DNA of 64,000 nt from Rufibacter latericius (GTDB lineage: Bacteria; Bacteroidota; Bacteroidia; Cytophagales; Hymenobacteraceae), in contig NZ_RJJD01000001.1 in assembly GCF_003721515.1 (NCBI RefSeq), positions 744,001 through 808,000 on the forward strand, read 5' to 3'. Below, in pieces: positions 8,492 to 60,820 of this stretch (positions are counted from its first letter, which is position 1; every line of letters begins with the position of its first letter). The notes under the pieces are model-generated. The model ran no database searches, was not told the origin of the DNA, and worked only from the letters and a program-made list of their open reading frames with translations. The translations under genes were made by a program, and so were the position numbers.

Positions 8492-9991
8492 TTAGAACAA
8501 CCCTGCGGCTTTCAGCAGGATGCGGAGGCTCCAGATAATTACCAGCGTTCCTACTGCAATGAACATAGTTTTCATAGGCAGTTTCCCGACCAATCTGGCA
8601 GCGATAGGAGCCGCTAACATGCCACCTATTACCAACCCAACAATCACCTGCAGGTGACTCAGCCCTAGCATGGCAAAAAACGTCAGGGCACTGGCAAAGG
8701 TCACAAAGAACTCGGTGATACTCACGGTGCCAATCACGAAACGGGGGGTGCGGCCTTTGGCAATAAGCGTACTGGTCACCAACGGTCCCCAGCCGCCGCC
8801 GCCGAAGGAATCCAGAAAACCACCGGCTCCGGCCAGAACTCCGGCCATCTTGATCTTCTTCCGTTCTTTGTTTTTCTTGAAGGCCGTGTAGATGATTCTC
8901 GCGCCTAAAACCAAGGTATACGCCGCTAAGATGGGCCTAACATAGTTCGCGTACTCCTCTCCTATTTCTGACAGCAGCCAGGCTCCTGCTACTGCGCCCA
9001 GGATGCCGGGCACCAGCAAGACCTTAAACAACTTGCGGTTCACGTTCCCGAACTTGTAATGACTGAAGCCCGAGATACCGCTGGAAAAGATTTCGGCGGT
9101 ATGGATGCTCCCGCTAATGGCCGGCAGATTCACGCCTAAAGACAGCAACACCGTGGTGCTGGTCACGCCGTAGCCCATGCCCAACGCGCCGTCTACCATC
9201 TGGGCCAGGAACCCGGCAAAAATCATCCAGTAGAAGATCGGCTCAATGTTACCCACGAAAGTGGAGACCTCGGAAAAGGTGATAGCCGAGAACACAAACC
9301 GACCCAGAATCATGAAGAAGAACGCCAGGGCTGCGCCAGAGGCAATCAGTTTCCAGGGCTTTTCCTTGCGTTTCGGAGAATTCCGAACTGGCTCTTTCAC
9401 GGCCAGCACTTTGGTGATGTCGTTGAGTTGGGTCACCTTGGCGGAAAAGTCTCCTGCGAGTTGGTTCCGGATGGACTGCAAGTTGTCCAGCACCTCGTCC
9501 AGTTCCTCGGGCAGCGTCTCGTTGAAGGTCTCCTTCAGGCGCTTGGCCATGGTGGGCGATTTGCCGTTGGTGGAGATGGCAATCTTGAGGTTGCCTTTCC
9601 GGACCACCGAGCTCAGGTAGAAATCACATAAATCAGGCGTATCGGCTACGTTCACCAGTTTGCCCTGATGTTTGGCTTCCAAGCTGATGGCCCTACTGAC
9701 CTCGCGGTCATTTACGGCCACAATCACGATATCAATTCCGTCTAAATCAGAAGGAGTGAACGCTTTGGCTTCTAACGTGATGTTGCCATGCTCTGACGCC
9801 AGTTGCAGCACTGATTCATGGAACTGGATGGCCACTACTTTAATGGTGGTCTTTGGAGAATTCTGCAGCAGCGCCGTCAGTTTCTCCAAGCCAATATTGC
9901 CTCCGCCCACCACCAGCACGCGCATCTGCTCCAGTTTCAGAAAGACGGGAAACAGGTTGTTTTGTTCTTTGGTAGCGACAGCGGAAATCAT
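8492..9991 (-). CDS. Fusion: siroheme synthase N-domain (precorrin-2 dehydrogenase) :: TSUP (TauE/SafE) permease
   Basis: Protein of 499 aa from the ATG at 9991 (a TTG at 10018 is in frame). The first ~165 residues are a CysG-N/MET8 domain: NAD-binding VLVVGGGNIG and NVADTPDLCDF, which oxidise precorrin-2 and may insert iron to make siroheme. A ~45-residue linker leads to a TSUP domain with roughly eight hydrophobic segments and the GALGMGYG and FGGGGWGP motifs, a family that moves sulfite, sulfate or other sulfur anions. Siroheme is the cofactor of CysI upstream, so the fusion links cofactor synthesis to sulfur-anion transport. No frameshift is visible; the reading frame is continuous. Confidence 0.88.
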   Translation of the reverse strand: MISAVATKEQNNLFPVFLKLEQMRVLVVGGGNIGLEKLTALLQNSPKTTIKVVAIQFHESVLQLASEHGNITLEAKAFTPSDLDGIDIVIVAVNDREVSRAISLEAKHQGKLVNVADTPDLCDFYLSSVVRKGNLKIAISTNGKSPTMAKRLKETFNETLPEELDEVLDNLQSIRNQLAGDFSAKVTQLNDITKVLAVKEPVRNSPKRKEKPWKLIASGAALAFFFMILGRFVFSAITFSEVSTFVGNIEPIFYWMIFAGFLAQMVDGALGMGYGVTSTTVLLSLGVNLPAISGSIHTAEIFSSGISGFSHYKFGNVNRKLFKVLLVPGILGAVAGAWLLSEIGEEYANYVRPILAAYTLVLGARIIYTAFKKNKERKKIKMAGVLAGAGGFLDSFGGGGWGPLVTSTLIAKGRTPRFVIGTVSITEFFVTFASALTFFAMLGLSHLQVIVGLVIGGMLAAPIAARLVGKLPMKTMFIAVGTLVIIWSLRILLKAAGLF

Positions 9992-10195
9992 CTTTTTAGC
10001 TTCTTGGGAAGGAACCAAAATATTGCTTTAATCAAATATACTTGTAATGTCTACCAATCCTATCAGGTATCAGAATTAAAGTTCATATATAAGGGCCACT
10101 TTCTTAAAAGCAGCCCTTAAACAGATCATGACAGATTCTGAATGACAGACGGTAGAGCTATTTCTTCAGCATTTTGTCGAAACTTAAGCCGAAGC

Positions 10196-11875
10196 TTAGT
10201 TCAGCAGCGTACGGTACGCGAAGTCACCGAAACGCTCCCCGGCAATGCGGTTCTGCTTGAAGAGACCAAACGCGACATCCAACTCCTGCAAAATAGCGGC
10301 TTCATCCAGGTTCTCCTTGTAGAGTTTGTTCAGGCGGTAGCCTTGCTCATCCCCGCCCAGGTTCAAGTTGTAACGACCCGGAGCCGTACCCACGAACCCT
10401 ATTTCAGAAAGCACCGAACGACCACAGCCGTTGGGGCAACCAGTCATCCTGATGATGATTTCCTCGTCCTGCAATCCGTGGTTTGCTAACACGCCGTCAA
10501 TCTTGGTGATCAGTTCCGGCAGGTAGCGCTGAGCCTCGGCCAGAGCCAATGGGCAGGTAGGAAGTGCTACACAAGCAATCGCATTTTTACGAAGAGGTGA
10601 AGCCGCATCGGTGTGCACGATTACGTTGTGTTTTACCAGAATCTGCTCAATTTCAGCCCTGTTTTCCGGCGTGATGTCGCTGAGAATCACGTTCTGGTTA
10701 CAGGTGAACCGGAAGTTGGCTTTGCCAGTCTGCGCTACTTCCAGCAACGCCGATTTTAGGGCCACCGTTAGCAAATCTGTGATGCGGCCGTTTTCCACAA
10801 ACATGGTATAATGCAGTAAGCCATTGTAACTCGTTGCCCAGCCGTAATGGTCTACGCGGGTTTTCAGCTCGTACGAACGGGGTGCTTCCAGCGGAAAACC
10901 GGTGCGTTTCTCCACTTCCTGGCGGAACACATCCTGGCCCATGTTGTCCACGGTGTACTTCAGGCGGGCCAACTTGCGGTCAGTCCGGTTGCCGAAGTCA
11001 CGTTGCACGGTCAGCACCTCATACACGGCTTTGAACAGCTTCTCGTCAGATTCTTCAGTACTCACAAACCCGATTTCAGAAGCCAGACGTGGGTACGTTT
11101 CTGCGTTTCCGTGGGTGAAGGATAAACCACCGCCAACGGCGAGGTTAAAGCCTTTCAGTTCATCGTTCTCAATGATGGCAATCAAACCCAAGTCCTGAGC
11201 GAATACATCTGAATCATTGTTAGGCGGAATCACCAGACCGATTTTGAACTTGCGGGGCAGGTAGCGGTCCTGGTACAACGGATCTTCTTCCTCTACCTTG
11301 TCATAGATTTTCTCCTCGTCCAGCCACACGTCATAGTAAGAGCGGGTTTTGGGCAGCAGGTAGTCACTGATTCTGTCGGCGTACTGGTAGATGCGTTCGT
11401 GCAGCGGTGATTCCAGCGGATTGGCAGAAGAAACCACGTTCCGGTTCACATCGCCGCAGGCAGCAATGGAATCCAGTCCGGCCAGGTTGAAGGCCTTAAT
11501 AGTGGGTTTGGTTTTGCCCTTCACAATACCATGCAACTGCAGGGTCTGGCGCGTAGTAATTTTAATCACCCCAGTGGAGTTTTCACCCGCAATGTCGTGC
11601 GTGGCGATGTATTGTTCTGGCGTCATGAATCCGCCGGGCAGGCGCAGACGAATCATGAAGGTGTACAGACGCTCCAGTTTCTTGGCGGCACGCTCTTCCC
11701 GGCGGTCACGGTCGTCCTGCATGTACATGCCGTGGAACTTCACCAGCGCGGTGTCATCCTCGCGAATGGCTCCCGTGATTTCGTCTTTCAGGCTTTCTTT
11801 GAGAGTACCGCGCAACCCTTCGCTGACCTCTTTTATTTTCTCTATAGGAGATAAATTCTTTTTCTCAGTTGACAT
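10196..11875 (-). CDS. cysI: Sulfite reductase hemoprotein (beta subunit)
   Basis: Siroheme/[4Fe-4S] enzyme of 559 aa that reduces sulfite to sulfide with six electrons. The cluster ligands are C435, C441, C480 and C484 (CVALPTC and TGCPNGC), the spacing typical of sulfite reductase. Residues TTRQTLQLHG near 107-116 match the siroheme-binding arginine region. It lies directly downstream of cysJ in the operon (gap of 204 bp), which argues for NADPH-dependent sulfite reductase over a nitrite reductase. Confidence 0.95.
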   Translation of the reverse strand: MSTEKKNLSPIEKIKEVSEGLRGTLKESLKDEITGAIREDDTALVKFHGMYMQDDRDRREERAAKKLERLYTFMIRLRLPGGFMTPEQYIATHDIAGENSTGVIKITTRQTLQLHGIVKGKTKPTIKAFNLAGLDSIAACGDVNRNVVSSANPLESPLHERIYQYADRISDYLLPKTRSYYDVWLDEEKIYDKVEEEDPLYQDRYLPRKFKIGLVIPPNNDSDVFAQDLGLIAIIENDELKGFNLAVGGGLSFTHGNAETYPRLASEIGFVSTEESDEKLFKAVYEVLTVQRDFGNRTDRKLARLKYTVDNMGQDVFRQEVEKRTGFPLEAPRSYELKTRVDHYGWATSYNGLLHYTMFVENGRITDLLTVALKSALLEVAQTGKANFRFTCNQNVILSDITPENRAEIEQILVKHNVIVHTDAASPLRKNAIACVALPTCPLALAEAQRYLPELITKIDGVLANHGLQDEEIIIRMTGCPNGCGRSVLSEIGFVGTAPGRYNLNLGGDEQGYRLNKLYKENLDEAAILQELDVAFGLFKQNRIAGERFGDFAYRTLLN

Positions 11876-12079: not shown

Positions 12080-13798
12080 TTAATACACGTCTTTCAGGTA
12101 GCGGCCTTCTTCTTTCATTTGCTCCAGGTATACGGCGGCTTCCTCTGGGGATGAACCGGCACCCAGTCCTATGATTTGCAGCAGGGTGTTTTCTACGTCT
12201 ACGCTCATAGGTTCTTTGGCGCCGCACACGTACACATACGCCCCGGAAGTCAGCCACTCGTAGAAGTCAGTGGCGTTTTCCAGCATTTTGTGCTGCACAT
12301 AAATTTTCTCTTTCTGGTCGCGGGAGAAGGCTCCGTTGAACTTGGTCAGAGTACCTGTCTCATACCAGTTCTGGATCTCCGTCTGGTACAGGAAGTCGGT
12401 GGCGAAGTGCTGGTCTCCGAAGAAAAGCCAGTTACGGCCATCGGCTCCGGTGGCATCGCGCTCTGCTAAGAAGGAACGGAAAGGCGCTACTCCGGTGCCT
12501 GGCCCAATCATAATCACATCTTTGTCAGCGGCCGGTAACTTGAACTGGTTGTTCTTGTGGATGTAGAATTCCAGCGGCTGGCCTCCTTTCTGCTCAGATA
12601 AATAATCAGAGCAATGGCCGCACAGCAACTCTTCGTTGATCCTGAATTCATCGCGGGCCACCGTCACGTGAATCTCACCGGAGTGCGCTTCCAAAGAGGA
12701 AGAAATGGAATACAGTCTTGGCGCAATCGGCTCCAGAATTTGCAGTACATCTTTGAACTGTTCGGTGTCTTTTACCGGGTAAATTCTCAAAAGGTCCAGC
12801 AAATCAATGCGGGTAGCTGGAATGTCCTGTTCCACCACCTCGGCGTATTTCTTTACTACGCGCTCAGGCAGGAACGTGATGTTCAGTTTATCGTGGAGCA
12901 ATTCGCGAACGGTTGATTCGCTGTTGCGGTGGTTTACTTTTTCATCCGGTGAGATGCCAGTCACTTTCAGGATGGCCTCTATGGTAAACGGACGGTTTTT
13001 AGGAACTACGCCTAACGCATCACCGGGCTCATAAGCTAAATCTTCGGCCTCGATTTCAATGTGGTGCGTGAGTTTGTTGGAGCCCACATCGTTCAGGATG
13101 ATGTTGGTGAGGATGGTGCCGTTGTATATTTTCTTACCTGCTTTTTTGGCGGGCGTCGGAGCGGCGGCCGGGGCAGAAGCAGGAGCCGAGGATTGGTTTA
13201 AGGTTTCCAGCACGCTTTGGAACCAGGCGTTGGCCTCGTCTTCGTAGTCTACGTCGCACTTCTGAATAGGCACCAAAGGGCTTCCACCTAGGCGCTGTAA
13301 TTGGGTGTCTACGTCTTCACCGGCTTTGCAGAACAGCGGGTAGGCCGTGTCACCCAACGCCAGCACGCTGTACTTCAGTTTAGGCAGCTTTTTATCGGTC
13401 TGGTGCACGTAGTCGTAGAACTTCTGGGCCCCGGCGGGCGGGTCACCCTCGCCTTGGGTACTAATGACAGTTAAGAAATATTCTTCCTTCTCCAGGTCGT
13501 TCAGGCGGTATTGGTCTAAGCTGACCACCTTGGCATTAATACCAGACTTCTTCGCTTTGCTCGCAAAATCATTGGCTACGCGCTTAGAGTTACCGGTCTC
13601 GGTGCCATAGGCAATGGTAATCTTACCTACCGATGCTTTAGGAGCCTCTGCCGTCACTGCGCCCGCGGCGGGAGCCGAGGATGTTGCACCCTGAGATGAA
13701 GTAACCCCCGCCAGGAATCCGCTCATCCAGATGAGTTCATCTTTAGATGATTGCTGGACCAGTTCCAGGAAGGTTTTTAATTTAGCTTCTGCTAACAT
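12080..13798 (-). CDS. cysJ: Sulfite reductase flavoprotein (alpha subunit)
   Basis: Diflavin reductase of 572 aa that passes electrons from NADPH through FAD and FMN to CysI. An N-terminal helix precedes a flavodoxin domain (about 57-200, starting ITIAYGTETGNSKR). A Pro/Ala linker (about 203-217) leads to the FAD domain (RLYSISSS; GDALGVVPKN) and a ferredoxin-NADP reductase-type nucleotide domain (IGPGTGVAPFRSFL) ending in the family's aromatic C-terminus, KDVY. Length and order match CysJ. The start is the ATG at 13798, 10 bp downstream of cobA. Confidence 0.95.
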   Translation of the reverse strand: MLAEAKLKTFLELVQQSSKDELIWMSGFLAGVTSSQGATSSAPAAGAVTAEAPKASVGKITIAYGTETGNSKRVANDFASKAKKSGINAKVVSLDQYRLNDLEKEEYFLTVISTQGEGDPPAGAQKFYDYVHQTDKKLPKLKYSVLALGDTAYPLFCKAGEDVDTQLQRLGGSPLVPIQKCDVDYEDEANAWFQSVLETLNQSSAPASAPAAAPTPAKKAGKKIYNGTILTNIILNDVGSNKLTHHIEIEAEDLAYEPGDALGVVPKNRPFTIEAILKVTGISPDEKVNHRNSESTVRELLHDKLNITFLPERVVKKYAEVVEQDIPATRIDLLDLLRIYPVKDTEQFKDVLQILEPIAPRLYSISSSLEAHSGEIHVTVARDEFRINEELLCGHCSDYLSEQKGGQPLEFYIHKNNQFKLPAADKDVIMIGPGTGVAPFRSFLAERDATGADGRNWLFFGDQHFATDFLYQTEIQNWYETGTLTKFNGAFSRDQKEKIYVQHKMLENATDFYEWLTSGAYVYVCGAKEPMSVDVENTLLQIIGLGAGSSPEEAAVYLEQMKEEGRYLKDVY

Positions 13799-13808
13799 AG
13801 CTTTGATA

Positions 13809-14630
13809 TTATTGAAGTACTAAGCCTACTTGTTCAGAAACCGGCTTGAAGTAATGTTCTCTACTTGGGTTGTTGGTGAACCACTTGAACTCATGGTGCA
13901 GGTTCACCACTCTGCCTATAATCACGAGCGACGGCGACACAAACGTCTTTCCGCCTAGGTTCTTCTCATAGTCATACAGGCTGCTGGTTTGCACGTGCTG
14001 CAAAGGAGTGGTGGCCTGCTCCACTACCGCCAGTTGCTTCTCCTCTGAGATACCGTGGCGCGTCAGTTTCTCCACCACCTCTCCCAGCCGCTCACTGGAC
14101 ATGTAAAACACCAGCGTGTCTTCGGTCTGGGCTAGTTCCTGCCAGTAGGCATCGGTGAGTTTGCTGTAGGTGTAGAAGGTAAGGAACCGCACGGCGGTAG
14201 AATGTTGGCGGGCCGTGAGTGGAATGCCAGCATAAGCGGCTGCGCCTAAGGCTGCCGTAATGCCGGGTATGATTTCATATTCAATCTCATGGGCTACCAG
14301 GCTTTGCAGTTCATCCAGCACGTTGGAGAAAATGGACACGTCTCCGCCTTTCAACCGAACCACTTGTTTGCCCAATAACGCATATTCCACCAGCAGTTCA
14401 TTGATGGTGGCTTGCGGCGTGGTTCCGTAGCTGCGGCACTGCTTGCCCACGTACACCACCTCCGCCGAAGGCGCGGCATAGCTTTGCAGGATTTCGGGGC
14501 TTATCAAGCGGTCAACCAGAATCACCTCGGCGTGGCGCAACGCTTTTACCGTCTTCACGGTAATCAAATCAGGGTCACCGGGACCGGCTCCTGCTATGAT
14601 TACTTTTCCTTTCTGTGGCGCTGCTTGCAT
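13809..14630 (-). CDS. cobA: Uroporphyrinogen-III C-methyltransferase (SUMT)
   Basis: SAM-dependent methyltransferase of 273 aa that makes precorrin-2 from uroporphyrinogen III, the first step to siroheme. The glycine-rich GAGPGDPDLIT motif, the RLISPEIL and YVGKQ segments and the LKGGDVSIF loop are all present. Together with the CysG-N domain of the fusion protein at 8492-9991 it supplies siroheme to CysI, so what is one protein (CysG) in enterobacteria is split here, with the second half fused to a permease. Confidence 0.95.
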   Translation of the reverse strand: MQAAPQKGKVIIAGAGPGDPDLITVKTVKALRHAEVILVDRLISPEILQSYAAPSAEVVYVGKQCRSYGTTPQATINELLVEYALLGKQVVRLKGGDVSIFSNVLDELQSLVAHEIEYEIIPGITAALGAAAYAGIPLTARQHSTAVRFLTFYTYSKLTDAYWQELAQTEDTLVFYMSSERLGEVVEKLTRHGISEEKQLAVVEQATTPLQHVQTSSLYDYEKNLGGKTFVSPSLVIIGRVVNLHHEFKWFTNNPSREHYFKPVSEQVGLVLQ

Positions 14631-14712: not shown

Positions 14713-15990
14713 CTAGATTTCCGGCCAGAAAGGCTTCTCAGTGGCTTCGGTGGAAATCATGCAGGCGCCAACCGTTACGTTGCTGGTTTCATCAATTAAG
14801 ATGGCCCCGCCGTTGGCTCTCAGGTTTTTGTAGGAATCAAAGGCAATCGGCGAAGCCGTTCTGATGGTGGCTTTCACTACATCGTTAAGACCCGCCGACA
14901 CCGGAGAAAGTTCTTTTTCCAGTGAATTTACATTCAGTTTGTACTCCAGTTCTTTCACCACGCAGCGCACGGTGCGGCTGTTGATTTGCAGCAGGTATCT
15001 GTTGCGAGGCACCAGCGGCGTGTTGCTCATCCAGCAAAGCACTACTTCAAATTCCTGGGCCACCTGTACGGGAGCGTCCTGCTTTACAATGCTATCGCCG
15101 CGGCTAATGTCTACGTCGTCTTTCAGGTGTAGCACGGCGCTTTGCGGGGCGAAGGCTTCTTCCACTTCCTCGCCGCCAACTTCCACGGCAGAAATGGTGC
15201 TTTCCACGCCAGATGGCTGAATCACCACTTTATCACCCTTGCGGTAAATGCCGCTGATGATTTTTCCGGCGTACCCACGGTAATCAGGCAATTCCTCGGT
15301 CTGAGGACGGATGACGTACTGCACCGGGAAACGGCCTTCGGTGAGGTTGATGTCCTCGTGTACCTCCACTGTTTCCAGCACGCTCAAAAGAGACTCGCCT
15401 TCATACCAGGGCATAGAAGTAGATTTCTCCACTATGTTGTCGCCGTTCAGGGCACTGATGGGAATATAGGTCACATCTTTCAAACCCAGAGATTTGGCTA
15501 CCTGTGAGTAGTCAATCACGATGTCATTGTACACATCCTGCGAATATTTCACCAAATCCATCTTGTTGATAGCTACCACTACGTGCGGCAAATTCAGCAA
15601 CGACACAATGATGGAATGACGGCGGGTTTGCTCCACTACGCCATGACGGGCATCAATCAGGATGATGGCCAGGTCTGAGTTAGAGGCACCAGTCACCATG
15701 TTGCGAGTGTACTGGATGTGGCCCGGCGTATCTGCGATGATAAACTTGCGCTTAGGCGTAGAGAAGTACTTGTAGGCCACGTCAATGGTGATGCCCTGCT
15801 CCCGCTCCGCACGTAAACCGTCAGTCAATAGCGCCAAGTCCACCTGACCTTCTTCGCGGTTTTTGGTGCTCCGCTCAATCGCCTCCAACTGGTCTACCAT
15901 GATGGATTTGCTGTCATACAACAAACGCCCAATCAAAGTACTCTTGCCATCGTCTACGCTCCCGGCGGTTAAAAATCTTAGAATATCCAT
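14713..15990 (-). CDS. cysN: Sulfate adenylyltransferase subunit 1 (GTPase)
   Basis: EF-Tu-like GTPase of 425 aa that drives CysD to form adenylyl sulfate. The P-loop is GSVDDGKST (11-19), with DTPGH and NKMD motifs following. No APS kinase domain is fused, as expected because the pathway here uses an APS reductase (see cysH). An interspersed-palindrome core overlaps the stop codon region (about 14695-14727). Confidence 0.95.
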   Translation of the reverse strand: MDILRFLTAGSVDDGKSTLIGRLLYDSKSIMVDQLEAIERSTKNREEGQVDLALLTDGLRAEREQGITIDVAYKYFSTPKRKFIIADTPGHIQYTRNMVTGASNSDLAIILIDARHGVVEQTRRHSIIVSLLNLPHVVVAINKMDLVKYSQDVYNDIVIDYSQVAKSLGLKDVTYIPISALNGDNIVEKSTSMPWYEGESLLSVLETVEVHEDINLTEGRFPVQYVIRPQTEELPDYRGYAGKIISGIYRKGDKVVIQPSGVESTISAVEVGGEEVEEAFAPQSAVLHLKDDVDISRGDSIVKQDAPVQVAQEFEVVLCWMSNTPLVPRNRYLLQINSRTVRCVVKELEYKLNVNSLEKELSPVSAGLNDVVKATIRTASPIAFDSYKNLRANGGAILIDETSNVTVGACMISTEATEKPFWPEI

Positions 15991-16201: not shown

Positions 16202-17110
16202 CTAGAAGTATCCGTTTTTCTTACGGTCTTCCATGGCGGCTTCCGACACGCGGTCGTCAATGCGGGTCTGGCCGCGCTCGCTGGTGTTGGTAGCGATGAT
16301 TTCGTTGATGATGTCATCCAGGGTAGAAGCGCTGGACTCCACGGCTGCGGTACAAGTCATGTCACCCACGGTGCGGTAACGAACCACTTTGCGGGTCACC
16401 ACGTCATGGTGGTCAAGCGTCACAAACTCGTTGGTAGCTACTAAACGGCCATCAAACTCCAACACCTCGCGCTCATGGGCGAAGTAGATGGACGGCAGCT
16501 CAATTTTCTCGCGGCGGATGTAGTTCCAGATGTCCAGCTCGGTCCAGTTACTGATAGGGAACACGCGTACGTTTTCGCCCTTGTTGATCTTGCCGTTGTA
16601 GGTATTCCAGAGCTCGGGGCGTTGCAACTTAGGGTCCCAGGAGCCGAACTCGTCACGCACCGAGAAAATACGCTCTTTGGCGCGGGCTTTCTCTTCGTCA
16701 CGGCGGGCACCACCAATACAAGCGTCAAACTCGAACTCCTCAATGGTGTCCAGCAAGGTGTAGGTCTGCAACCCGTTGCGGCTAGGCAATTTGCCTTTCT
16801 GCTCAGTGAGGCCTTTGGCTTTGATGGTGTCTTCCACGTTGCGCACAATCAGCTTCTCGCCAATCTTATGGGCCAGGTAATCCCTGAAGTCTAGGGCTTC
16901 CTCGAAATTGTGGCCGGTGTCAATGTGCACCAACGGGAAAGGAAACTTGCCGGGACGGAAAGCTTTCAACGCCAAATGCACCAACACAATAGAGTCTTTT
17001 CCGCCGGAAAACAACAAGGCCGGACGCTCAAACTGACCTGCTACTTCTCTGAAGATGTGAATCGCTTCTGATTCAAGCTGGTCCAGGTAATCTAATTTAT
17101 ATGCTGACAT
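16202..17110 (-). CDS. cysD: Sulfate adenylyltransferase subunit 2
   Basis: ATP-sulfurylase catalytic subunit of 302 aa, of the PP-loop family. LLFSGGKDS (32-40) is the ATP pyrophosphatase loop, and GARRDEEKARAKERIFS is the conserved Arg-rich segment. The C-terminal RKKNGYF tail is typical of CysD. It lies 16 bp downstream of cysH and is expected to work with CysN. Confidence 0.95.
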   Translation of the reverse strand: MSAYKLDYLDQLESEAIHIFREVAGQFERPALLFSGGKDSIVLVHLALKAFRPGKFPFPLVHIDTGHNFEEALDFRDYLAHKIGEKLIVRNVEDTIKAKGLTEQKGKLPSRNGLQTYTLLDTIEEFEFDACIGGARRDEEKARAKERIFSVRDEFGSWDPKLQRPELWNTYNGKINKGENVRVFPISNWTELDIWNYIRREKIELPSIYFAHEREVLEFDGRLVATNEFVTLDHHDVVTRKVVRYRTVGDMTCTAAVESSASTLDDIINEIIATNTSERGQTRIDDRVSEAAMEDRKKNGYF

Positions 17111-17126
17111 AATCTGAAAATGCTAA

Positions 17127-17882
17127 CTAAACTATTTTGGCTAATGAGTTGGCAACCCCCGGCTCCTGCTCGGTCACGTGCAAGCCGCACTCTTTTTTGC
17201 TGGCGTCTTCCCACCACCAACGTCCAGCCCGGAAATCTTCGCCCGGTTGGATGGCGCGGGTACAAGGGGCGCAGCCGATGCTGATGAAGCCTTTGTCGTG
17301 CAGTTTGTTGTAAGGGATGTTGTTCTGCTTGATGAAGGCCATCACCTCGTCGGTGGTCCAGTACAGCAGCGGGTGGAACTTGATGAGCTTGTTTCCCTCG
17401 TCCCACTCAAACTTAGGCAAGTCACCGCGGCCCGGAGAGTGCTCGGCTCGCAGGCCGGTAATCCAGACAGCGTTGCCTTTGAGCGCGCGCTTCAACGGCT
17501 CCACTTTCCTGATGTGGCAGCAGTCTTTGCGGTTCTGGGTAGATTCATAAAAGGAGTTTGGACCGGTAGAAGACACAAATTCCTCCAGCTGCTCATTGTT
17601 AGGGTAATAAGGCTTGATACGGGTGTTGTACGCCTCATTGGTGCGGCTCCATACCGAGTAGGTCTCGGGGAAAAGGCGGCCGGTGTCTAACGTGAAAATG
17701 CTGATAGGAAACTGGTTCTCCAGGATCTGGTGCGAAATCACCTGGTCTTCAAAGCTGAAGCTGGAAGAGAACGTCACCTCATTAGGAAAACGGTTGACCA
17801 GCAGCGCAAACGTCTGGTCTATGGTTAAACCTTCTGTCTCTTGAATAAGCTGAGACACCTGCTCTTGTGTTGAAGAGGCCAT
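17127..17882 (-). CDS. cysH: Adenylyl-sulfate (APS) reductase
   Basis: Reduces activated sulfate to sulfite. The 251-aa protein has C121-C122 (KDCCHIRK) and C204-x2-C207 (IGCAPCTRA), the four ligands of the [4Fe-4S] cluster found in APS reductases and absent from PAPS-specific enzymes. Catalytic Cys C232 lies in ECGLH near the C-terminus. APS as substrate fits the lack of an APS kinase in the operon. It is the first enzyme gene of the operon and is preceded by the poly-Cys leader ORF. Confidence 0.93.
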   Translation of the reverse strand: MASSTQEQVSQLIQETEGLTIDQTFALLVNRFPNEVTFSSSFSFEDQVISHQILENQFPISIFTLDTGRLFPETYSVWSRTNEAYNTRIKPYYPNNEQLEEFVSSTGPNSFYESTQNRKDCCHIRKVEPLKRALKGNAVWITGLRAEHSPGRGDLPKFEWDEGNKLIKFHPLLYWTTDEVMAFIKQNNIPYNKLHDKGFISIGCAPCTRAIQPGEDFRAGRWWWEDASKKECGLHVTEQEPGVANSLAKIV

Positions 17883-17942
17883 GGCTAGAAAGTACTAAAT
17901 AAGAAAATGGATTGTAAGGGTGCCGGATAGGCAATAAAGATT

Positions 17943-17970
17943 TGTTGACTGCTAAGGACTAGCAACAACA
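17943..17970 (-). promoter_or_regulatory. Hairpin over the leader stop codon, possible attenuator
   Basis: On the minus strand TGTTG-T-TGCTA / loop GTCCT / TAGCA-GT-CAACA forms two 5-bp stems with a small internal loop. The 5' side uses the last Cys codons and the stop of the leader ORF. Only a weak T-rich run (AATCTTTATT) follows, so intrinsic termination is possible but not certain. A ribosome stalled on the Cys codons would block this fold. Confidence 0.45.
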
Positions 17971-18000
17971 GCAGCAAGGGCTGCAACAGCAGAAGCGCAT
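17959..18000 (-). CDS. Poly-cysteine leader peptide MRFCCCSPCCCCC of the sulfate operon
   Basis: ATG-initiated ORF of 13 codons plus TAG, 76 bp before cysH and about 60 nt after the predicted transcription start. Eight of 13 residues are Cys, in runs of three and five, using both TGC and TGT. Such a density of the pathway's end product in a leader ORF is the hallmark of ribosome-mediated attenuation; poly-Cys upstream ORFs controlling sulfur genes are established in mycobacteria. Function here is inferred from position, composition and the overlapping hairpin. Confidence 0.8.
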   Translation of the reverse strand: MRFCCCSPCCCCC

Positions 18001-18380
18001 TCGCTTTATGTAAGATGAATAGACCATGTAGTCTTTATCTGTTTCTGACTGTTAATTAGATGACACAAAGGTAGGTACTGATTATTACAAATCAAGTTTT
18101 CCTATCAATTTAATAGGGATTATAGATTAAAAATTCAAAGGCTAGTCTGCTTCCTCTTTATGTTTTTCCCTAAAATTTGTCTGTTTCTTTAACGCTTAGT
18201 TAAAACCCAGCGTTCCCTTTAGAACCTATTTTTTTCAAAACAGGCCGAAAGCGCTGGAGTATCAGAGAGGTAACAGCATCCGGTTAGGTTTCGATTTTGG
18301 TTCGGCTGTTTCCGGCCTGTTTTCCAGAGAAAACATTTAAAGGCAATCCTTACCTTCGCAGCTTTCATACCCACATCCAC
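18001..18380. other. Spacer between the sulfate-operon promoter and the LRR-kinase
   Basis: Beyond the cys promoter no gene is seen. Two degenerate palindrome cores lie near 18226-18262 and 18312-18335. TACCTTCG at 18351-18358 could be a -7 element for the LRR-kinase gene, but no -33 partner is visible. Confidence 0.4.
18066..18096 (-). promoter_or_regulatory. Bacteroidota-type promoter of the sulfate operon
   Basis: On the minus strand, CTTG (18096-18093) is followed after exactly 19 nt by TACCTTTG (18073-18066), a full match to the -7 consensus TAnnTTTG and three of four at -33. Transcription would begin near 18059, leaving a leader that contains the poly-Cys ORF. Confidence 0.75.
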
Positions 18381-19712
18381 ATGCAAACCCTCCTACGACT
18401 AAGGGCCGGCGAACTTTCTGGCACTAAAAGGCTAAAACTATCCTGTGGCCTCACCGAGTTCCCCCTGGAGATCCTGGACTTAGCCGATACCTTAGAAGTG
18501 CTAGACCTGACCGGAAACAGGTTAACCCATCTGCCCGAAGAGTTTGCCCGATTGACCCACCTGAAAATTGCGTTCTTCTCAGACAATCCGTTCACAGAGT
18601 TCCCAGCGGTGCTTGCCCAGTGCCCGGCTTTGGAGATGATCGGGTTTAAGTCTTGTCAGATCCAATACATCGCGGAGGATGGCATTCCCCTGAATACCCG
18701 CTGGCTTATCCTCACGAACAACCAGATCACGGAACTACCGGCTTCCATCGGGAAATGCCACCGCATGCAGAAGTTCATGTTGGCCGGAAACCTCCTGACG
18801 CAACTTCCCCCGGAACTTGCTTCCTGCCAAAACCTGGAGCTGCTGCGGATCTCGGCCAACCAGATCACCCACCTGCCGGATTGGCTTTTCTCCCTGCCCC
18901 GTCTGTCGTGGCTCGCGATCTCAGGTAACCCTTGCAACCAGCATCCGCATGAAATAGAAGACTTGCCCGAGATCAGCTGGGAAGAACTGGAACTGGAAGA
19001 AGTTTTAGGCGAAGGGGCCTCGGGAGTCATTTCCCGGGCGCATTGGAACACACCTGGTGCTCACGGTGCCCCTGATCAGGTAGCGGTGAAAGTGTTCAAA
19101 GGCGAAGTGACCAGCGACGGACTGCCGCAGGACGAAATGCAGGCCTGTATGGCGGCCGGGGTTCACCCCAACCTAGTGCAGGTGCTGGGGAAACTCGCGC
19201 AGCACCCCGCTCAAAAGCAAGGCCTGGTCTTTGAACTGATTCCGGCAGGTTACCGAAATTTAGGCGGTTCGCCCAGCTTTGCCTCCTGCACCCGCGATGT
19301 CTACCCAGAAGGCACTGTTTTCACCTTACCCGAAACCCTCAGCATAGCATCAGGGATTGCGTCTGCGGCGGCACATCTGCACGCCCACGGCATCATGCAC
19401 GGTGATCTGTACGCGCACAACACGTTGGTGAACGCCACGGGGCACGCGCTGTTCGGAGACTTCGGGGCGGCTACACTCTATGACAAATCCGATGTAAAGC
19501 GCGCTAGTGAACTGGAACGTTTGGAAGTGCGGGCCTTTGGTTGTTTGCTGGAAGATTTGCTGGATCACCTTTCCGCAGAAGAGGCCCAAAAGTCAACTGT
19601 CGCTTCCCTGGTGCAATTGAAGCAGGACTGCATGAGACCAGAAGTAAAGCTTCGGCCCGATTTTACATCCATTCTGGAACGGCTAACTGACGCTGCGAAA
19701 GAGGTGCTTTGA
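18381..19712 (+). CDS. Leucine-rich-repeat protein fused to a protein kinase-like domain
   Basis: Protein of 443 aa from the ATG at 18381; upstream in-frame codons offer only weak starts. Residues ~1-195 hold six or seven LRRs of the LxxLxLxxNxLTxLP type. From about 205 a kinase fold follows: glycine loop GEGASG, VAVKVF with the ATP-binding Lys near 236, catalytic loop MHGDLYAHNTL near 338-345 (Gly replaces the Arg of HRD) and GDFGA near 358. Key catalytic Asp, Asn and DFG Asp are kept, so activity is plausible. There is no signal peptide or membrane segment, so it is probably cytoplasmic. Substrates are unknown. Confidence 0.85.
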   Translation: MQTLLRLRAGELSGTKRLKLSCGLTEFPLEILDLADTLEVLDLTGNRLTHLPEEFARLTHLKIAFFSDNPFTEFPAVLAQCPALEMIGFKSCQIQYIAEDGIPLNTRWLILTNNQITELPASIGKCHRMQKFMLAGNLLTQLPPELASCQNLELLRISANQITHLPDWLFSLPRLSWLAISGNPCNQHPHEIEDLPEISWEELELEEVLGEGASGVISRAHWNTPGAHGAPDQVAVKVFKGEVTSDGLPQDEMQACMAAGVHPNLVQVLGKLAQHPAQKQGLVFELIPAGYRNLGGSPSFASCTRDVYPEGTVFTLPETLSIASGIASAAAHLHAHGIMHGDLYAHNTLVNATGHALFGDFGAATLYDKSDVKRASELERLEVRAFGCLLEDLLDHLSAEEAQKSTVASLVQLKQDCMRPEVKLRPDFTSILERLTDAAKEVL

Positions 19713-60628: not shown

Positions 60629-60634
60629 CTACTG

Positions 60635-60739
60635 CTTATCAAGAAAGACGGAGGGATTAGGCCCTGTGATGTCTTAGCAACCCAATTCAGTTGGGTGCTA
60701 CTTCCTACCCACCACGCCAGCCGTGTTGGGGGAGATAAG
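60635..60739 (+). ncRNA. SAM-I (S-box) riboswitch
   Basis: P1 pairs CTTATC (60635-60640) with GATAAG (60734-60739). The conserved core AAGAAAGACGGAGGGA ... GGCCC ... GATG ... TTAGCAACCC and the later GGGTGCTACTTCCTACCC match the SAM-I class. No intrinsic terminator is evident in the 81 nt before the metH start, so control may be at translation or by an unrecognised fold. Confidence 0.9.
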
Positions 60740-60820
60740 TGTCCGAGACGACTCCTACACCCTCGCGCCACTTCCTCCTGCCCTTTCTTGAGACGCAACC
60801 TAACCTTCGGTTTGCAAAGA

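Follow-up and report, generated by a model that had tools for sequence, protein, structure and literature searches.

A putative cysteine-sensing leader peptide gene before the sulfate-assimilation operon of Rufibacter latericius and its counterparts in other Bacteroidota

The leader region and the operon behind it

The window analyzed here is a 64,000-nucleotide stretch of the Rufibacter latericius genome (NCBI RefSeq assembly GCF_003721515.1, contig NZ_RJJD01000001.1, positions 744,001 to 808,000). Its minus strand carries a sulfate-assimilation operon in the order cysH-cysD-cysN-cobA-cysJ-cysI (Table 1). An earlier note on this DNA had spoken of cysH-cysI expression; the cysH start that it gave, 17882, is retained and the gene content is given as all six genes. 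The cysH product scored above the curated cut-offs of both the PAPS reductase and the APS reductase models.

Table 1. Features of the leader region and the operon, with positions in the window
Feature	Position	Strand	Basis or remark
Palindrome CCTATTAAATTGATAGG, before the promoter	18101..18117	-	pattern in 15/55 leader-bearing and 6/72 leader-less loci
TACCTTTG, -7-like box of a presumed Bacteroidota promoter	18066..18073	-	match to the consensus as we take it to be
Leader ORF, 22 residues MVYSSYIKRMRFCCCSPCCCCC + TAG; alternative start 18000 (13 residues)	17959..18027	-	open and of equal length in 14/14 genus loci
First Cys run, codons 13-15	17983..17991	-	all three codons Cys in 14/14
Second Cys run, codons 18-22	17962..17976	-	codons 19-21 Cys in 14/14, codon 18 in 13/14, codon 22 in 10/14
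Hairpin H1, one-base bulge, over the last three Cys codons and the stop	17943..17970	-	17970-17960 with 17954-17943
Hairpin H2, short, TGCC with GGCA	17921..17934	-	77.1% of cells paired; broken in some species
Spacer from leader stop to cysH, C-rich and G-poor	17883..17958	-	C > G in 14/14 genus leaders, mean 29.3% vs 11.2%
cysH, first gene after the leader	17127..17882	-	NF002537 262.9 bits (cut-off 154); TIGR02055 245 bits (cut-off 235.3)
cysD	16202..17110	-	family profile search
cysN	14713..15990	-	TIGR02034 above cut-off
cobA, uroporphyrinogen-III C-methyltransferase	13809..14630	-	family profile search
cysJ-like sulfite reductase flavoprotein	12080..13798	-	TIGR01931 564.9 bits, below cut-off 668.15
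cysI, sulfite reductase hemoprotein	10196..11875	-	NF010029 743.4 bits (cut-off 457)
Further ORF behind cysI	8492..10018	-

The first gene is preceded by a Cys-rich ORF, MRFCCCSPCCCCC, at 18000-17959 of the same strand, with 8 Cys among its 13 residues. It reads ATG CGC TTC TGC TGT TGC AGC CCT TGC TGC TGT TGT TGC TAG, and these letters match exactly the poly-Cys ORF claimed earlier. A second in-frame ATG lies 27 nt upstream of 18000, at 18027, and extends the ORF to 22 residues, MVYSSYIKRMRFCCCSPCCCCC. Of the earlier ORF claim, the ATG at 18000 and the Cys run therefore stand, and the start probably moves to 18027, because codons 3-8 of the longer frame vary between species of the genus without a stop or an indel in 14 of 14 loci. 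The invariant ATG at 18000 may act as an internal start. In many folds of the genus leaders, the ATG at 18027 sits in the loop of a small hairpin, AGAC/GTCT (18021-18034 in the window), which in these models might tune leader initiation.

The promoter that had been proposed at 18096-18066 is represented by the box TACCTTTG at 18073-18066, which we take to be the -7-like box of the Bacteroidota promoter consensus; CTTG at 18096-18093 could be its upstream box. The predicted -7 box ends 39 nt upstream of the ATG at 18027, and TAnnTTTG occurs within 200 nt before the Cys run in 41 of 55 leader-bearing cysH loci. The palindrome CCTATTAAATTGATAGG is, from its letters and occurrence, a possible operator; its pattern matched 10 times in 444,721 bases of loci L050-L120. 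Similar sites, ACTAATTTGGTA, precede cysH in leader-less Chryseobacterium and Epilithonimonas loci.

Two groups of three Cys codons separated by six bases occur at ten places in the genome: the window leader, seven places within two simple TGC/TGT repeats, and two others. The pattern of four Cys codons followed by TRR occurs at 12 places in the same genome, each checked singly, one of which led to a second leader. As a finder across genomes the same pattern was rejected, since it was swamped by other frames among the matches listed. A search of Rfam with the window leader gave no match, and RF00162 was not found in 17600-18400 at E values up to 1.

The genus sample comprised 16 genomes including that of the window, 14 of which gave a cysH locus; the named ones are Rufibacter and one Sabulibacter. 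The 22-codon leader frame runs without indel or stop upstream of cysH in 14 of 14 loci, and orthologous leaders lacking the ORF or its frame, which the earlier note had listed as counting against its proposal, were not seen in the genus. Codons 3-8 are variable (Tyr TAT/TAC, His CAT/CAC, Ser TCA/TCT and some amino-acid changes), and codons 9-16 are nearly invariant. The last Cys codon (22) is replaced by Leu, Phe or Arg in four of the 14 leaders and codon 18 by Gly in one. The synonymous exchange suggested earlier as a check fails within the genus: TGC and TGT alternate at codon 13 only, in a single leader of 14, which argues that the leader nucleotides themselves are constrained. Exchange of TGC and TGT is present between genera. 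By their sequences, the genus leaders alone thus indicate a kept reading frame together with strong nucleotide constraint.

The hairpin that was said to use the last Cys codons and the stop is present, with its 3' end at 17943 as claimed. Its arms are TGTTGTTGCTA (17970-17960) and TAGCAGTCAACA (17954-17943). Across the 14 genus leaders 92.1% of cells are paired, two of the 11 pairs have changed on both sides, and some changes in the last leader codons are compensated in the partner arm. When this structure, which was drawn from the same 14 sequences, was compared with 500 shuffles by five measures, it was reached by 2, 5 and 5 shuffles in three of them but by 148 and 308 in the other two. RNAalifold, run unaided on the 14 leaders, gave a covariation term of about zero and one pair changed on both sides. 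The covariation check proposed for this hairpin thus gives a modest result, with three measures exceeding the shuffles and two of the five not.

The spacer between the leader stop and cysH is a possible Rho loading region, judging from its composition. An excess of C over G is also found in 10 of 10 sister-genus leaders and 25 of 25 other leaders, but in 23 of 72 leader-less upstream regions, for which a different stretch, the last 80 nt, was used. Since six of six leaders with terminators show it as well, the bias is not specific to terminator-less leaders.

Poly-Cys leaders and attenuators beyond the genus

We scanned 400 nt upstream of 137 cysH loci for ORFs of up to 60 codons with CCC or at least four Cys in eight residues. 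Ten of these loci are named second copies of genus loci, and dropping them leaves 127 distinct loci; three upstream regions were short (L072, 202 nt; L130, 56 nt; L129, 4 nt). Rows left out were L285 (a duplicate of L240), a spurious hairpin row of L100 and the L282 match, 584-725 nt from cysH. A poly-Cys mini-ORF was found on the forward strand at 65 of 137 loci (55 of 127 distinct ones), against 1 of 137 on the reverse strand and 34 of 2740 shuffles. By group, it was present at 14 of 14 loci in the genus, 10 of 16 in other relatives, 28 of 70 in named other genera and 3 of 27 in a class draw that included two upstream regions shorter than 60 nt. The ten positive relatives account for every same-family cysH locus in the sample, and named leader-positive loci include Chitinophagaceae and Saprospiraceae. 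Further upstream regions from the class had the leader in 5 of 16 cases, and those of a sulfite/nitrite-reductase-like gene in 8 of 30 (duplicate excluded). The 400-nt scan found no leader at 72 of 127 cysH loci, among them Epilithonimonas, Chryseobacterium and Pedobacter. Leader peptides of different lineages have little in common outside the Cys run. A plasmid search with the window leader gave no match.

Leaders of Saprospiraceae and those before the reductase gene have a Cys run followed by a possible antiterminator arm and then by a strong terminator. For seven such units, RNAalifold paired the Cys codons with the arm (1:2) and formed the terminator (3:4), with four pairs changed on both sides in at least one unit. 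We measured the arm in 18 units from 14 loci, picked because a terminator was visible. The arm lies 7-18 nt after the Cys run in 17 of the 18 units; its pairing was equaled by five or fewer of 200 shuffles in 11 units and by more in seven, and the mean z of the pairing was -2.4 over 19 rows, one of them spurious. Terminators of relatives reach about -23 to -31 kcal/mol in a loose terminator scan. From this arrangement we regard the leaders of the 14 chosen loci as trp-type attenuators composed of Cys run, arm and terminator.

Four loci hold tandem units, namely L100 and, in three genomes of one genus, L238, L239 and L240. There, two complete units of Cys leader plus terminator stand in series before one gene (2536-2881 in L100), so that tandem units occur in two unrelated lineages. 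A covariance model built from seven attenuators and run on 395 genomes was rejected as a finder, the matches listed being mostly like ordinary terminators; of the 30 loci listed, four had a run of at least three Cys codons, and one of these (L229), read further, is a Cys leader.

Poly-Cys ORFs joined to SAM-I riboswitches

The genome of the window has four poly-Cys leaders directly behind SAM-I aptamers, before a SusC/SusD pair (L289), an M14 peptidase gene (L313), an ATP-grasp gene (L330) and metY (L331). The poly-Cys ORF before the SusC/SusD pair, at G000:C16:96373, follows an aptamer that scores 74.4 bits against RF00162 (cut-off 44.4), and a second Cys ORF lies between it and the pair; the M14 peptidase leader also contains a second Cys ORF. 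The window itself has a SAM-I match of 73.8 bits at 60633-60741 on the plus strand (G000:C10:804633-804741), before metH and without a poly-Cys ORF.

Of 59 relatives, 52 have SAM-I aptamers, with 146 matches in all. In ten sister-genus genomes the aptamer precedes the poly-Cys ORF of cysH, and the ORF starts 9-12 nt behind it in 10 of 10. We examined 132 regions behind aptamers (141 matches when the ten cysH cases are counted in, one being in both sets). A poly-Cys ORF was present in 74 of the 132 riboswitch leaders, compared with 24 of 1260 shuffles. The composite arrangement depends on the gene: it was found before metY in 39 of 42 cases, amino-acid permease genes in 8 of 8, ATP-grasp genes in 9 of 10, SusC in 6 of 6, M14 peptidase genes in 5 of 5, reductase genes in 3 of 3, cysH in 1 of 2, unclassed genes in 3 of 10 and metB-like genes in 0 of 4. 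None of the 42 metH riboswitch leaders has such an ORF.

The start of the Cys ORF lies 6-12 nt after the last base of the aptamer in 67 of the 74 composite leaders, with a mode of 9, where the start was taken as whichever ATG, GTG or TTG comes first after the aptamer in the Cys frame, a definition that leans to short distances. By the same measure the other frames gave a first start at 6-12 nt in 0 of 148 cases. The 74 starts are 58 ATG, 13 GTG and 3 TTG; five further composites, before SusC, have an in-frame ATG at +7 (MTM...). In 70 of the 74, the last Cys lies at most two codons from the stop. Among the misses, L327, L329, L351, L421 and L424 carry an ORF starting at +6 to +9 that holds a weaker pair of Cys close to its end. 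The 3' strand of the aptamer reads TATAAA or a close variant in 70 of 74 Cys leaders, compared with 1 of 41 metH leaders. The metH leaders are shorter, which favors the contrast between them and the Cys leaders, yet a start (ATG or GTG) at +5 to +14 is present in just 3 of 41.

In a class sample, the composite was found in 4 of 20 further regions, one of them before a gene taken as metX, and in none of the best 30 by score, 18 of which precede metH as judged by N-termini. One locus (L122) has the order SAM aptamer, terminator-like hairpin with a T run, poly-Cys ORF about 110 nt further on, and cysH, that is, two separate stages unlike the fused form. Two members of the genus without a cysH match (L378 and L386, in G006 and G013) have kept a SAM-plus-poly-Cys leader.

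Geometry alone, namely the fixed distance, the AU-rich P1 strand and the contrast between genes, leads us to the hypothesis of a SAM-plus-cysteine gate, in which the platform of the riboswitch is the initiation region of the poly-Cys leader peptide; we hold this tentatively, at a little under even chances. SAM would close P1 of the aptamer, whose TATAAA 3' strand would double as the site where ribosomes land, about 9 nt ahead of the leader start, and high SAM would therefore block leader translation. At low SAM the decision would pass to Cys-tRNA. Genes for sulfur acquisition would thus be expressed only if SAM and cysteine were both low, as in an RNA NOR gate, and metH, which has no leader ORF and a P1 strand of another kind, would answer to SAM alone. 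The stand-alone cysH leader of the window would correspond to the cysteine half of this two-input device.

Mechanism, alternatives and comparison with known systems

We propose that the window element encodes a leader peptide whose translation monitors how much charged Cys-tRNA is available and adjusts expression of cysHDN-cobA-cysJI, a reading to which we assign a probability of roughly 80%. That the reading of Cys-tRNA would occur by ribosome stalling is, from the codon run and its counterparts, highly likely. Rho as the executor, in the manner of mgtL, is somewhat less than an even bet; the conserved hairpin H1, the C-rich spacer and the presence of a rho gene in the genome (655.7 bits) make this scheme the favored one. 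With plentiful cysteine, the ribosome would reach the stop, hold H1 open and leave, and Rho would load on the bare C-rich spacer and end transcription before cysH. With too little Cys-tRNA, the ribosome would halt at codons 13-15, H1 would form beyond it and the polymerase would continue. The 5' arm of H1 begins at codon 20, so it would lie beyond a ribosome at codons 13-15 and under a ribosome at the stop. On paper the switch is incomplete, because H1 would also form on an untranslated leader, as in the free-state fold.

The earlier note had proposed that cysteine shortage stalls the ribosome, changes the leader fold and raises cysH-cysI expression, by intrinsic termination, Rho or a translational route. 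The leader and the hairpin support this in part, stalling on Cys codons being the natural reading, and relatives display the logic in full; folds with a ribosome placed on the leader show no change at the cysH start. Under translational attenuation, the position of the leader ribosome would open the cysH start, or ribosomes would re-initiate after the leader stop. Such control would suit the loose terminator scan, which found no convincing intrinsic terminator before cysH in the 14 genus leaders, and the short way from leader stop to cysH start (73-82 nt in all 14 loci, 76-82 in most and 76 in the window), and mycobacterial poly-Cys ORFs are said, in the passages of the source considered here, to affect translation of the next gene (PMC9031893). 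Averaged over the 14 leaders, access to the cysH start nevertheless hardly moves: it is 0.57 in the free leader, 0.58 when the ribosome stands ahead of the first Cys, 0.54 when it has gone two codons on and 0.55 when it is at the stop. Sequestering of the cysH start was rejected as the constrained folds of the 14 leaders show no consistent change, and no consistent alternative fold that could act as a mutually exclusive antiterminator was found in them with or without a placed ribosome. We consider translational attenuation unlikely. It is less probable still that H1, with its poor T stretch, is itself a terminator. The same scan does flag it in five of the 14 genus leaders, including that of the window (-9.8 kcal/mol, with TCTTTATT after two A), but these calls are weak, the other nine leaders are unflagged, the true terminators of relatives are much stronger, and H1 was rejected as an intrinsic terminator in the genus. 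A ribosome finishing the peptide would melt H1, which makes it an unlikely terminator, and the logic would be reversed, as ribosomes short of Cys-tRNA would leave H1 free to form, and transcription would stop.

Two alternatives dispense with Cys-tRNA altogether. A peptide with eight Cys could bind metals, and it is conceivable that the peptide acts as a product, its Cys run sensing metal or redox state; we hold this very improbable, given the little likeness of the peptides outside the Cys run, the antitermination arms directly behind the Cys codons in relatives, and downstream genes that serve sulfur assimilation or uptake and are never metH. Chance, with TGY repeats being common and a short ORF over them meaningless, would draw on the fact that TGYTGYTGYTGYTRR occurs in at least 141 of 149 class genomes, several times in each. 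It deserves almost no credence in view of the reverse-strand (1/137) and shuffled (34/2740) controls, the metH riboswitch leaders (0/42) and the position of the start behind the aptamer (67/74 in the Cys frame vs 0/148 in other frames).

We see the window element most readily as one half of a broader system of sulfur control, the half that would sense cysteine, with Cys-tRNA as its probable signal. If this is true, it shows how Bacteroidota set sulfate assimilation by cysteine, of which we found no description in the open-licence literature, and control by poly-Cys leaders reaches this phylum with several executors: a single terminator, tandem terminators or none visible. By linking a riboswitch to the start codon of the leader peptide, the composite leaders would form a naturally occurring RNA gate with two inputs, for which metH in the same genomes serves as an internal contrast. 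The leaders also offer a way to find sulfur-supply genes, such as those for an amino-acid permease, a SusC/SusD pair, an M14 peptidase and a RimK-like ATP-grasp protein.

In trp-type attenuators, codons for the amino acid under control are followed closely by an arm, and a terminator completes the device. All three are seen in leaders of relatives; the window leader has the run of Cys codons but no convincing terminator, and its folds gave no consistent antiterminator. The aptamers of composite leaders match SAM-I (RF00162) in full and above the curated cut-off, and differ from it in ending about 9 nt before a poly-Cys ORF and in an AU-rich 3' strand unlike that of metH leaders. The statement in the earlier note that no poly-Cys attenuator is described in Bacteroidota holds for the open-licence PMC literature, in which we found neither a poly-Cys leader from this phylum nor a SAM riboswitch joined to a Cys leader. 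According to a 2010 survey (PMC2965389), leader peptides had been known, with the exception of ermC, from Proteobacteria and Actinobacteria alone, and the survey extended them to Firmicutes.

Poly-Cys leader ORFs were predicted before mycobacterial cys operons, with Rho suggested (PMC1262725, in the passages considered), and were tested by Canestrari et al. 2020, as cited by later papers. As these sources present them, they resemble the window leader in being short, with a Cys run near the stop, sulfur genes behind and no clear terminator, and differ in phylum, H1 and the SAM link lying outside their description. They are of a leaderless type; the window leader is by prediction not leaderless, since its promoter box precedes the ATG at 18027 by 39 nt. 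The Cys leader uORFC-8-2 before cysS in Rhodobacterales (PMC8632094) is, in the part of the source used, like the terminator-type leaders of relatives in its Cys codons, stems and intrinsic terminator, and unlike them in having two tandem Cys codons and in gene and phylum. For mgtL and corL, efficient translation of the uORF is described as leading to Rho termination and slow translation as allowing a structure that keeps the gene on (PMC11552253, excerpted). According to those excerpts, their signal is Mg2+ rather than one charged tRNA, it is read at proline and acidic codons, and no SAM aptamer is involved. With the mgtL type, the window leader has in common that RNA rich in C and poor in G follows the uORF and that the genome encodes a Rho factor.
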